DNA of 37,505 nt from Pseudomonadota bacterium. GTDB taxonomy: Bacteria; Pseudomonadota; Gammaproteobacteria; UBA5335. The translations under genes were made by a program, and so were the position numbers. The stretch covers positions 9,801-47,305 of the forward strand of contig JAXHTV010000018.1 in the NCBI GenBank assembly GCA_034189865.1. Reading direction: 5' to 3'. Shown here one piece after another: positions 18,469-35,841 of this stretch. The notes beneath the pieces are model-generated. The model searched no databases, was not told where the DNA came from, and saw nothing but the letters and a program-made list of their open reading frames with translations. Position 1 is the stretch's first letter. Each line of letters begins with the position of its first letter.

Positions 18469-18595
18469 ATGGACCGTCGCTGCGGCGGGGATAGCACGTG
18501 GACCGCTGGAAACGGAGCGTTACAATCGCCGGTGCGATGGGTTGCGGAAACAATGGGGTTGGGCGCGCGGGACAGAAGCGGTTCACCATAAAACA

Positions 18596-18618
18596 TAGGG
18601 CCTTCTGAGAAGGCCCTA
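18596..18618 (-). terminator. intrinsic-terminator-like hairpin facing the minus strand, with no gene assigned
   Basis: The arms TAGGGCCTTC (18596-18605) and GAAGGCCCTA (18609-18618) form a perfect 10-bp stem with a 3-base loop. On the minus strand it is followed by TGTTTTATGG, a T-rich tail; on the plus strand there is none. No recognised minus-strand gene lies immediately upstream (18620-19200). Confidence 0.55.
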
Positions 18619-18713
18619 CAATCGATATGGCTTGCTGGTAGCCACTTCTTATTGTTGTGACCGATTGGGCGATCGGCGTATTTGCCACGGAGATGACTGT
18701 TTCATGCCCAAGT

Positions 18714-18772
18714 TCCGGATACCCATCTTTTTTAGTGACTCGGAAGAAGGATGGGTGCGACGAGTATCCGGA
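18714..18772. repeat. imperfect long inverted repeat
   Basis: The outer arms TCCGGATAC (18714-18722) and GTATCCGGA (18764-18772) pair over 9 bp. Inside them CCCATC (18722-18727) pairs with GATGGG (18750-18755), sharing base C18722 with the outer left arm, and 8 bases bulge on the right side. The fold is long enough to be an RNA structure. Confidence 0.5.
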
Positions 18773-18975
18773 TCAATGAACGACCGACTTGTGACCCCAA
18801 GAGACCGTTCTGTCGGATGGTTTAGTTCTTATAGGTTCTCCTCCCGCTTTTTTGCCATGCATTTTAATTGATTGCTTGTTTAGGCGGCTGCAGGATCTGC
18901 TTGATTCGATGTGAATTTATTGTTGTCTTAGATCCGTTGCCTTTCGGTATGGTTAGATGCAGATAGCGTGCCAGA

Positions 18976-19017: not shown

Positions 19018-19072
19018 GTGGAGTGTACGCGTAGGCGGACGGACTATCATCCGTTGCTGACAGCCGCGAAAG

Positions 19073-19120
19073 TGACGCGTTTGGTCAAAAACTGCCGGCC
19101 AATTGTGACGTGTTGCGTCA
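19073..19120. promoter_or_regulatory. two TGACG-N5-(C/G)GTCA dyads upstream of the RNA ligase
   Basis: TGACG-cgttt-GGTCA at 19073-19087 and TGACG-tgttg-CGTCA at 19106-19120 share one architecture. They are spaced 33 bases apart (about three helical turns), 110-160 bases before the ligase start. A further TGACG half-site follows at 19125. The same dyad, with an N5 spacer, recurs at 21611-21625 beyond the PIN gene. The regulator is unknown. Confidence 0.4.
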
Positions 19121-19230
19121 GCCTTGACGTGTCGGTTCGGGTGGAGACGATTGAAACAGTGGCTTGATTCGCGCCCGGCCACTGGATTGAATCCGCACAC
19201 GGGGTGCGCGAACGATCATTGGAGTTTCAC

Positions 19231-20334
19231 GTGAATTCTGACAACCAAGGGGCTAAGTCCAACGTCAGGCTCAGTGCCGAGCGATACGACGACATGACCT
19301 ATCAGCGTGCCTTGGACGATTCAGAGGGTTTCGTTCGCGGTAGCGCCCATTTTGATAATGGCGAGTTGACGGTGCCCGGCTATCCATCCATCGGCCGAAT
19401 TTTGAATCTCGAGCGCGGCTTGTCCGAACAAGTGGGTGAGCGTTTTTGGATGGAAGAAAAAATTGACGGCTATAACGTTCGGATTTTCCGCCATCACGAC
19501 CGCGTCTTGGCGCTCACTCGCGGTGGGTTCGTTTGTCCGTTCTCCACTGACCGGCTCGCGGACCTGTTCGATCTGTCGTTTTTCGACGCCCATCCGGAGA
19601 TGGTGGTCTGTGCCGAGATTGCTGGTCCCGGAACGCCATATCTCGAGGGTTCACCGCCATTCATCCCAGAGGACGTGGGCCTTTACGTGTTCGATTTCAT
19701 GCGCCTCAATCGGCCGGGGTTTGTTGATCCGCAGGAGAAGGATCGACTGATGGCGGCGCATCAGCTCAATGCCGTTCCCGCTTTGGGGTATTTCTCGGTA
19801 GCGGATATCGACCGGATTCGATCGATTATGGTCCAGTTGGACGAGTCGGGACGCGAGGGCGCCGTGTTTAAAGAGGACGGTGGGCGGAATCGTCGGGCGA
19901 AGTACGTCACTGCCCAGTCGAGTATTGCCGATATTCGATGCACCGCCGGCGGTATGTTGGAGCTTCCGGCGGAATACTTCACCGGGCGCATTCTGCGAAT
20001 GGTCACTTTTCTGGAGGAACAAGGCCTGCAGGCTAGCAGCGATATTCCACAAGCGCTGGGATCTGCGTTTCTGGATGGCTTGAACGAAGCCGTTGCTCAG
20101 TATCGAGAGGTACACCAAGTTTTCCACCGCTTCCGCTGCCGTTTTCGCAGCCGGGCCGCGGCGGAACAGTTGATCGAACACTTCTATCACACCCAAGGTA
20201 AGCAGCAGCGTACTCAGGTGGAATCGCTCACCCAACAAGCGGATGGCTACTGGTTGCTTGTGTTTGATCGCGTCTATCCGGGAATGACGGGTCTGCTGGG
20301 CCACGTTCTGGGTGGCGGCGCGGTATATGACTGA
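19231..20334 (+). CDS. ATP-dependent RNA ligase, Pab1020/Rnl3 family
   Basis: The start is placed at GTG 19231, with GGAG (19221-19224) 6 bases upstream; the frame-extended GTG 19204 has no such site. The 367-residue product carries the nucleotidyltransferase motifs in order: motif I EEKIDGYNVR with the adenylated Lys77, LTRGG near 96-100, motif III CAEIAG (Glu129), motif IIIa YVFDF, motif IV EGAVFK (209-214), and motif V AKYV (Lys224). The EKIDGYNVR form and a C-terminal helical domain point to the mainly archaeal Rnl3 ligases, which join or circularise RNA ends through ligase-AMP and RNA-adenylate. It is convergent with the PIN-domain partner gene 71 bases away. The RNA substrate is unknown. 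Confidence 0.9.
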   Translation: MNSDNQGAKSNVRLSAERYDDMTYQRALDDSEGFVRGSAHFDNGELTVPGYPSIGRILNLERGLSEQVGERFWMEEKIDGYNVRIFRHHDRVLALTRGGFVCPFSTDRLADLFDLSFFDAHPEMVVCAEIAGPGTPYLEGSPPFIPEDVGLYVFDFMRLNRPGFVDPQEKDRLMAAHQLNAVPALGYFSVADIDRIRSIMVQLDESGREGAVFKEDGGRNRRAKYVTAQSSIADIRCTAGGMLELPAEYFTGRILRMVTFLEEQGLQASSDIPQALGSAFLDGLNEAVAQYREVHQVFHRFRCRFRSRAAAEQLIEHFYHTQGKQQRTQVESLTQQADGYWLLVFDRVYPGMTGLLGHVLGGGAVYD

Positions 20335-20405: not shown

Positions 20406-20984
20406 CTATACCCCCGAGAGATTCTCCATTATCGAACGCAGATTGGCCGGATCCACTAACTTGACGCCGAACTTATCGGCCCATATACGCATACCATAAT
20501 CGGCGGAGACCAAGGTTGCGTCCAACTCCAACGCGAGCAATACGGCATCCAGATCTTCCGTCGAATCCAATAATCCCTGTCGAAGCGCTTCCCGGTAGCG
20601 CTGCCGGAGCCGGTGCACGAGTTGTCCCACGTTCTCCGGTGTGCCCTCGCCCGCCAGCTTGGTATGTTCTTCGGCGATTCGCAGGCCCTGATCGATTCGC
20701 ATTCGGACTTCCTCGACGAACTCGTAGAGCATTTGGCTGGGGACCTGGAGCTGGTGTTTGCGGGGCGAGCGGACACTGACCCAGGTCTGGAAACTTGCGG
20801 CTACGTTACTCATCTCGCGCATTTTGCCCAGTTCCTGGTAGGTGCTACTCGGCATGTAGAATCGGCCTTGCGCGTTCTTGGCCAGTTCAATGAAATCGCT
20901 GAGTGCCTCGATCGCATCTTCGCCGAACTGTCTGAAAATTTCGGGGTTGGTGAATACACTGGTATCGACGACGTAGCAGTCCAT
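20406..20984 (-). CDS. PIN-domain RNA ligase partner protein (MJ_0950/UPF0278 family)
   Basis: The start is placed at ATG 20984 (MDCYVVDTSVFTNPEIF), with AAGGAA 9 bases upstream; the 22 residues before it in the open frame look random. The 192-residue product is a PIN fold with early acidic VVDTSVF (Asp7), mid acidic residues and the late STEDLDAVLLALELDATLVSADYGMRIWADKFGV block, giving the metal-binding Asp cluster of PIN ribonucleases. Length and the VVDTSVFTNP / MRIWADKFGVKLVDP segments match the family known as RNA ligase partner, which co-occurs with Pab1020-type ligases in genomes. Its location tail to tail with such a ligase supports the call. Whether it cleaves RNA here is untested. 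Confidence 0.88.
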   Translation of the reverse strand: MDCYVVDTSVFTNPEIFRQFGEDAIEALSDFIELAKNAQGRFYMPSSTYQELGKMREMSNVAASFQTWVSVRSPRKHQLQVPSQMLYEFVEEVRMRIDQGLRIAEEHTKLAGEGTPENVGQLVHRLRQRYREALRQGLLDSTEDLDAVLLALELDATLVSADYGMRIWADKFGVKLVDPANLRSIMENLSGV

Positions 20985-21095
20985 GCTCAGGTGTTCCTTG
21001 GATAGCGATGAAGCGCCGTGCTGACCTTGGGTCGCACGTGGGCGGCGCAACTAGTGTATAGCATGTCGTTCCCCGCCGGGGCGGTTTTCTGAGCG

Positions 21096-21128
21096 GATAA
21101 AAAAAGCCTTCTCTGGTGGGAGAAGGCT
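21096..21128 (-). terminator. strong intrinsic terminator facing the minus strand, with no clear gene upstream
   Basis: The arms AGCCTTCTC (21105-21113) and GAGAAGGCT (21120-21128) pair perfectly around a 6-base loop. On the minus strand the hairpin runs directly into seven T residues, a textbook Rho-independent terminator. It lies just upstream of the PIN gene, so it ends a different minus-strand transcript originating to the right. Confidence 0.8.
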
Positions 21129-21608
21129 GAAGGGCCGAACACCCCGCTTCACGCGGAGATGGGTTTGCCGAGCAAGAAACTAACCGGTCAAATTGCGATT
21201 CACCGGAATGGCCGAGCGGTGTCGCGCCGCTCGGGCGAAAAGGGGGGGGGCGTACGTCGCCAGGGCGGGCGACGTACGGACACGCGGTCGTGAACTGGCT
21301 ATGGTCTGGGTAGTCAGGGAGAAGCCGAGCGGTTGACCAAGGGCTTGGATCGCACAGGGGATTGATCCAATCAGAATTGCCCGAGCCATGGCGGATTGGG
21401 TAAACCGAATGATCGGGCAAAGAAACAACATAGAAAAATCCACTTCAAAATCGTTGAGTCGGGTTTCGTTTGATCGGCCAAACAGGAGTCGTTTTGGCCG
21501 TCTTGTCCTAAACAGAGCAGGAATTGTGCCACTGAAGGATATTTAGTTCTATATTGTTGATTTCTTTTGATATGTTGGGGTTTCTCTCCGCTTTTGGTAT
21601 CCCAAAAA
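21129..21608 (-). ncRNA. candidate structured noncoding RNA or long leader ending at the 21096-21128 terminator
   Basis: The interval has no recognisable protein. The minus frame 21180-21443 (87 codons) has no ribosome site and reads like noise. The sequence is strongly structured: an 11-bp perfect hairpin CGTACGTCGCC/GGCGACGTACG (21251-21261 with 21268-21278) and an 8-bp one CCGAGCGG/CCGCTCGG (21212-21219 with 21227-21234). Both lie before the intrinsic terminator on the minus strand. The promoter is unknown; the TGACG dyad at 21611 could regulate it. The alternative is a long 3' UTR of the methyltransferase-like gene at 21747. No known ncRNA family is recognised. Confidence 0.35.
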
Positions 21609-21627
21609 TGTGACGTTTATCGTCACA
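21609..21627. promoter_or_regulatory. 19-bp perfect dyad TGTGACG-N5-CGTCACA
   Basis: TGTGACG (21609-21615), TTTAT, and CGTCACA (21621-21627) form a perfect dyad. A third TGTGACG half follows at 21629-21635. The half-site resembles CRP-type TGTGA, but the spacing (N9 between TGTGA and TCACA) is wrong for CRP. It matches the dyad upstream of the RNA ligase. Confidence 0.5.
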
Positions 21628-21746
21628 TTGTGACGGCGTGGGTGACCAAAAATGGCGATTAGTGCCGCCCGGCGTCAGTAGTCACGTCTCGATCCGTGCG
21701 AAAGCCCGTTGATCGTTGAGTCAATGAATAGTTGGACGGTCGCGGA

Positions 21747-22565
21747 CTATGCCGGCCCGGAAGATGTGGCGTGATTTTCCGGCATACCGATGAGATAGGT
21801 GATCCGATACGGAAAGCCGAATGGACCACGGGCTCTAATTTGACCGATGTCCCAATGGTAGTGGGGGCTGTCGATATCCCTGACCAGGTCAGCCAGTTCG
21901 CGGACGGAATAGGTCCGTAAGCAGGAGACAAAGCCATCCCAGGCGTACACCAGCGGACACAGTGGTATCAGGTAGGTGAACAGAAAACGCGAGAGGGTCA
22001 TCCGCCCGGCAAACGGCGTGAACAGCAAGCTGCTGAAAAACACGGCAAACGGCACGAGTAGGATCGTCGTCAGACGCCGTTCTTGGGCTTCGAATGCGCC
22101 GATACCCACGCCTTTTTGCGCAGCGTCCTCAAGAATCTTTCGCGCCCCCTCCGGCCGAAAGTGATGCAGCCCCGTGAAAATGGTCCGAAACGCACCGAGG
22201 TCAGCCGGTGCGTCGAAAGCGCTCGTGGGTTCTATTCGCCCACGGACCTGTCCGCTAGTTTTCTGGGCAAGGCGGCTAAAAGCCAGTTCGTTGGGATAGA
22301 GGTCTGTCAGGAGCACTTGCGGTGTGGCGTCGAAGTCGTTTCGTAACTCATCCATCAGCGCCGGCAGTGGGCCGCCACCACCGGAACACAGATCCACAAT
22401 CTGGTCGGCCCGAAGACGCTGCAAGCAGTCGTTGATCATTCCCGCGACGGGGTTGAACAAGCCGAAGGCGGTAAACAAGAAATGTAGGTTATCGGTAATG
22501 AAGTCGCGGAAGACCTTCGGTACCCACGGCAGGTCTTCCCATTCCCATAAATGAACCCGTGCCAT
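21747..22565 (-). CDS. class I SAM-dependent methyltransferase-like protein with membrane helices
   Basis: The start is placed at ATG 22565 (MARVHLWEWEDLPWVP), with GGAG 5 bases upstream. The 272-residue product has a Rossmann-type motif I (IVDLCSGGGGPLPALMDEL), an acidic segment after strand 2 (VLLTDLYPNELAF) and a later strand FRTIFTGLHHFRPEGARKIL. Together these fit a SAM methyltransferase in which a folding-state check precedes HH/F. About residues 165-210 are hydrophobic (TTILLVPFAVFFSSLLFTPF; FLFTYLIPLCPLVYAW), so it is probably membrane-associated. The substrate is unknown. It is transcribed toward the structured interval and PIN gene, with no terminator seen at its own 3' end. Confidence 0.78.
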   Translation of the reverse strand: MARVHLWEWEDLPWVPKVFRDFITDNLHFLFTAFGLFNPVAGMINDCLQRLRADQIVDLCSGGGGPLPALMDELRNDFDATPQVLLTDLYPNELAFSRLAQKTSGQVRGRIEPTSAFDAPADLGAFRTIFTGLHHFRPEGARKILEDAAQKGVGIGAFEAQERRLTTILLVPFAVFFSSLLFTPFAGRMTLSRFLFTYLIPLCPLVYAWDGFVSCLRTYSVRELADLVRDIDSPHYHWDIGQIRARGPFGFPYRITYLIGMPENHATSSGPA

Positions 22566-35807: not shown

Positions 35808-35841
35808 GCTTGACACTGTGTCAATTGACACAGTGTCAAGC
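35808..35841. promoter_or_regulatory. perfect 34-bp palindrome made of two adjacent TetR operator-like dyads
   Basis: TTGACACTGTGTCAA (35810-35824) and TTGACACAGTGTCAA (35825-35839) are each near-perfect 15-bp dyads and exact reverse complements of one another. With two flanking bases on each side they make a perfect 34-bp palindrome. It sits between the divergent NmrA and TetR genes, 19 bases from the NmrA start. Confidence 0.85.

Follow-up and report, generated by a model that had tools for sequence, protein, structure and literature searches.

CrcZ and CrcY of Pseudomonas are described as long noncoding RNAs that depend on sigma-54 and CbrB and are expressed from promoters of the GG-N10-GC form (PMC6296734), and the CbrAB system has been described as exclusive to pseudomonads. 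The binding sites of PilR, in the part of the report drawn on here, are described as NifA-like, with the form TGT-N11-AGA (PMC6058289). The co-occurrence of the protein-only RNase P HARP with Rnl3-type RNA ligases, mostly in a facing arrangement, was published in 2025, and the same source, in the portion cited here, reports that Rnl3 circularises RNAs and proposes that HARP and Rnl3 jointly mature archaeal C/D box RNAs (PMC12153264). The locus described here has points of likeness to, and of difference from, each of these systems.

The locus lies in a stretch of DNA of 37,505 nucleotides, which we refer to as the window. Its main feature is unit B, a predicted 408-nt noncoding RNA on the minus strand (21098–21505), the end of which is set by an intrinsic terminator and the start of which, near 21505, is placed by the usual spacing between a sigma-54 promoter and its transcription start. 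We think it probable that B is a stand-alone, sigma-54-dependent noncoding RNA gene with a regulatory function, co-expressed with type IV pili. The prediction that B specifies a noncoding RNA with extensive structure is well supported, with promoter, operator, fold and terminator all in line. The sigma-54 promoter, the operator and a twin unit, A, are additions to the initial annotation, which was made from the sequence alone.

The structural features of B are clearly defined. First, the minus-strand terminator (21128–21098) has a perfect 9-bp stem, a 6-nt loop and a run of seven T, with an energy of −14.4 kcal/mol (z −5.6). Secondly, there are perfect hairpins of 11 bp (21251–21278) and 8 bp (21212–21234), and a further hairpin at the predicted 5′ end (21475–21500), all on the minus strand. 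The initial annotation had pointed to the terminator and to the 11-bp and 8-bp hairpins, and each proves exact. Perfect hairpins with stems of at least 8 bp number 18 in the window compared to a shuffle mean of 4.65, and five of the 18 fall within 21105–21629. Thirdly, the predicted B transcript (21098–21505) has a fold z of −4.5 against 60 shuffles, compared to a lowest value of −3.3 among 94 control windows of equal length, for each of which 25 shuffles were used. The slightly longer stretch 21098–21535 has a z of −3.4. Much of the excess folding is carried by the 3′ hairpins, and the 5′ 222 bases taken alone have a z of −1.7. The longest perfect hairpin of the window lies elsewhere, at 35808–35841, and has a 15-bp stem and a loop of 4 nt.

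No Rfam family reaches its gathering score in the window, no tRNA or tmRNA was detected, and there is no tRNA-like element in B. The terminator end of B aligns with RF02278, a toxic small RNA family of Betaproteobacteria, at 23.1 bits compared to a gathering score of 50, and we rejected this match; the model reads ordinary terminators, since 62 of 95 genomes and 8 of 14 controls contain matches to it at E ≤ 1. Two gammaproteobacteria have higher-scoring RF02278 matches, of 48.5 bits (L102/G063) and 47.2 bits (L103/G064), against the same gathering score of 50. The B sequence is unmatched in the other 55 of the 56 relatives searched, and there is no second copy of 21000–21760 in its own genome, such that a repeated element is rejected. 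The five family relatives lack both units as well as the exact operator.

Upstream of B is an exact match to TGGCAC-N5-CTGC (21531–21517, minus strand), which we take to be a −24/−12 sigma-54 promoter. A perfect operator, TGTGACG-N5-CGTCACA (21609–21627, minus strand), is centred at −100, and we propose that it is an upstream activating site; two further operator-like sites on the same strand are at 21629–21647 (three mismatches, centred at −120) and, more weakly, at 21661–21679 (four mismatches, centred at −152 from the −12 element). Between the operator and the promoter there is an IHF-like element, AATCAACAATATAG (21549–21562, minus strand), an imperfect match to the consensus, and no exact IHF pattern was found. 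The exact pattern TGGCAC-N5-YTGC occurs twice in the window (21531–21517 and 18973–18959), both times on the minus strand, while shuffled sequences contain a mean of 0.19 per window, with at least two copies in only 6 of the 300 shuffles. The only places in the window with the exact operator core, TGTGACG-N5-CGTCA, are 19104 and 21609 (shuffle mean 0.007); each is paired with a different sigma-54 promoter downstream of it on the same strand, and a terminator follows each promoter.

The second of these arrangements is unit A, a predicted noncoding RNA of about 360 nt (18587–18947, minus strand) that contains AACAATAA twice (at 18924 and 18656). Its exact sigma-54 promoter, TGGCACGCTATCTGC, is at 18973–18959, its operator sites are at 19104–19122 (two mismatches, −153) and 19071–19089 (three mismatches, −120), and its intrinsic terminator (18618–18589) has a 10-bp stem and a loop of 3; all are on the minus strand. 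The fold z of A is −3.9, compared to the −3.3 that is the lowest of the 94 control windows, and its longest reading frame is no more than 29 residues. A is unmatched in the other 19 of the 20 relatives searched. Homology between A and B was considered and rejected, the alignments being limited to operator-like stretches and short stretches attributable to chance. The two units flank a ligase/PIN gene pair, one on either side.

We derived the operator motif by eye, from B and A, ahead of any testing, and because it was taken from B and had already been noticed in A, independent support for it comes from the pilA site and units C and D only. The exact operator core occurs at four places in the 2.9-Mb genome compared to none for a reversed control pattern, and with one mismatch allowed there are 25 matches compared to 8 for the control, palindromic places being counted twice. 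At three of the four exact operators (those of A, B and contig 8) an exact sigma-54 site is present about 90–155 bp away on the expected side. A cluster of operator-like sites at contig 8:180–255 contains an exact core (at 236) with no sigma-54 site; this cluster is near a contig end and precedes a gene for a secreted-looking protein. Exact sigma-54 sites taken alone are weak evidence, with 25 in the genome compared to 19 for the reversed control. When the two elements are considered together, however, an operator with at most three mismatches is centred between −170 and −80 at five of these 25 sites, compared to 5 of 738 control windows. The five are pilA, A, B, C (contig 1:129364) and D (contig 1:137839), and the genome contains rpoN.

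The pilA site lies in a locus on contig 8 (77670–80828) with genes for a histidine kinase and a receiver-AAA-Fis regulator, the operator, the sigma-54 site and a type IV pilin gene, an order that we take to be that of PilS-PilR-PilA. The score of the regulator falls short of each of the NCBIfam equivalog cut-offs shown, and we refer to it as PilR-like because of this gene order. Units C (contig 1:129200–129378, minus strand) and D (contig 1:137839–138010, plus strand) are predicted orphan transcripts of about 150 nt, each with a sigma-54 site, an operator and a terminator, and neither contains an open frame longer than 14 residues. The two resemble each other at the 3′ end (74% across 50 bases), with a TTGACCCCT hairpin followed by a T-run, and both contain AACAACAA-type runs, which B does not. 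Searching the loci of A, C, D and E against Rfam gave four matches with E-values of 0.5–0.71, all below gathering. Possible conservation of D was dismissed as chance, with best matches of 18–23 bases at E-values of 0.03–0.08 in four other genomes. A further exact sigma-54 site, at contig 1:130609–130623 on the minus strand, has a weak operator with four mismatches, and a terminator about 157 bases on with no long frame before it.

We infer transcription of B, the identity of its activator and its regulatory action from these arrangements, and the sequence of events would be as follows. An NtrC-class activator, probably the PilR-like protein encoded next to the pilin gene, would bind TGTGACG-N5-CGTCACA about 100 bp upstream and remodel the sigma-54 polymerase at 21531–21517; the transcript would start near 21505, fold into several stable hairpins and end at 21098. 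B would thus be made when pilin is made, with the terminator and hairpins conferring stability on the RNA, and sister unit A, beyond the ligase gene, would follow the same promoter plan. By analogy with other sigma-54 small RNAs such as CrcZ and CrcY (PMC6296734), B is likely to act by base pairing or by protein capture. Because AACAATAA is present in A and AACAACAA-type runs in C and D, and neither is present in B, the four RNAs need not act alike.

The genes between A and B must be considered in evaluating other explanations. The PIN protein (20406–20984, minus strand; TIGR03875 and PF08745) is a HARP, a protein-only RNase P, with a TIGR03875 score of 218.1 bits compared to a cut-off of 95.3, and it matches solved RNA-free RNase P chains with an E-value of 2.6e-69. 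The ligase (19204–20334, plus strand; TIGR01209 at 299.9 bits, PF09414 and PF18330) is of the Rnl3 type and convergent with HARP. Of the 274 genomes sampled from the class, 10 encode PF08745, the present one among them. For comparison we assembled 89 PIN loci outside of the window (nine together with the best 80 of 304), with at least five contigs present twice, and a ligase is encoded in the fetched flank of 64 of the 89, convergent in all 64. Gap estimates at the PIN loci are rough, as at some of them the neighbouring genes are masked by long frames on the opposite strand. One locus was dropped from the upstream comparison, its upstream sequence being too short, leaving 89 HARP regions, including that of the window; for the ligase, 58 regions were used. 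Among the fetched loci, all-against-all comparison of the regions upstream of HARP and of the ligase revealed nothing resembling the window sequence, and a same-strand terminator within 300 nt upstream of the ligase is found in none of the 58 regions.

The main rival explanation is that B is a regulated 5′ leader of HARP, with HARP expressed from the sigma-54 promoter and the terminator serving as a partial stop or attenuator. B and HARP are transcribed in the same direction, the HARP gene starts about 114 bases past the B terminator, and a scan of the intervening bases for sigma-70-like promoters with 8 or more of 12 matches gave none. However, the terminator hairpin has a pairing probability near 1 both in full-length B and in the other stretch folded, with no competing structure, and A has the same plan with neither ligase nor HARP behind it, the next minus-strand gene being about 465 bases from its terminator. 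Other HARP loci also argue against a leader: a HARP-strand terminator within 300 nt upstream is present in only 2 of the 89 regions, the window and one other (the loci including the best 80 of 304), and at none of the 89 other loci (nine and the best 80 of 304) is the pair accompanied by an exact sigma-54 site within 1 kb. We therefore regard a HARP leader as unlikely, and favour B as a stand-alone RNA gene.

There is also only a small chance, in our estimate, that no dedicated RNA is made, with the terminator ending read-through from the gene at 21750–22565 and the promoter and operator sites arising by chance. That gene does lie upstream on the same strand, and genome-wide the exact sigma-54 matches barely exceed the control, but the operator and its flanks (21629–21607) form a 9-bp hairpin followed by T5 that is already in place behind the gene, the pairing of operator and promoter is far above chance, and homologues of the gene in three relatives have no such region behind them.

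A co-regulated small protein is improbable. The frame concerned (21183–21443, 83–87 residues) takes up the greater part of the transcript and stops about 50 bases short of the terminator hairpin, and at contig 1:58275 a one-mismatch operator together with a one-mismatch sigma-54 site precedes a gene for a small secreted-looking protein (MRKLTCTFAFLSALMVLPFAANA...). However, coding signal is absent from the 600 bases upstream of the B terminator. The codon score of the 21183–21431 frame is 0.004 per codon, below 97% of 71 pieces of real genes, although it ranks in the top 18% among 355 wrong-frame pieces; GC at the second codon position is 0.60 in this frame compared to 0.43 for real genes; and a sense frame of equal length is present in 245 of 1000 shuffles. 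It has no relatives in the other 94 of the 95 genomes searched and no Pfam or NCBIfam match, and none of the units A, C and D contains a frame longer than 29 residues. The absence of a gene before the terminator, noted in the initial annotation, is thus borne out, and the noncoding reading of B is preferred.

The proposal that A and B are the missing bacterial substrates of HARP and Rnl3, made from sigma-54 promoters, with HARP cutting or trimming at a hairpin and Rnl3 joining the ends into circles, would tie the formation of circular RNAs to surface or pilus signalling, and it draws on the position of the two units around the pair, on HARP being a nuclease and on the circularising activity of Rnl3 and the joint archaeal C/D box maturation proposed (PMC12153264), but it is highly improbable, with no recurrence of a promoter or related sequence beside the pair in the 89 other loci (including the best 80 of 304), no tRNA-like element, and a common operator that links A and B to the pilin gene and not to the ligase. 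A tie between B and the HARP/ligase pair is thus not supported by the sequence evidence. The gene at 21750–22565 adjoins PPK2 in two relatives (G002 and G005), neither of which has a match to B, and because both keep the gene and PPK2 without the RNA, we regard the spacer and the pair as probably arranged in this way only locally. The proposed control of B by a regulator of the pilin type points to a role other than as a substrate of the ligase and PIN protein. Of the candidate RNA first suggested at this site, the structured noncoding RNA is therefore well supported and its role as ligase/PIN substrate is not, and we note that gene neighbourhood by itself says little about the substrates of a HARP-ligase pair. 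If the RNAs are made, they would be small RNAs of no known family that share a switch with the type IV pilin, and would provide an RNA arm for the pilus regulator.

Comparison with known systems shows several patterns. The convergent HARP and Rnl3 genes are arranged as published, although the portion of that report cited here proposes archaeal C/D box substrates and describes no bacterial noncoding RNA neighbour (PMC12153264). The units A and B resemble CrcZ and CrcY in having several spaced upstream subsites for an activator (PMC6296734, in the part cited). They also resemble them in being two sister units with one promoter plan; however, both the operator and the regulator here are unlike theirs, and B has no Rfam match, with no CrcZ/CrcY-type family up to an E-value of 10. 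The motif for Crc/Hfq is AANAANAA, and repeats of this A-rich (CA) motif were not found in B, whereas A, C and D carry AACAA-type runs. Among the literature matches listed there was no PilR-controlled small RNA. The operator has the form TGT-N13-ACA, different from the TGT-N11-AGA given for PilR in the passages cited (PMC6058289), but as in the PilR regulon an operator and a sigma-54 promoter separate a PilR-like gene from a pilin gene.
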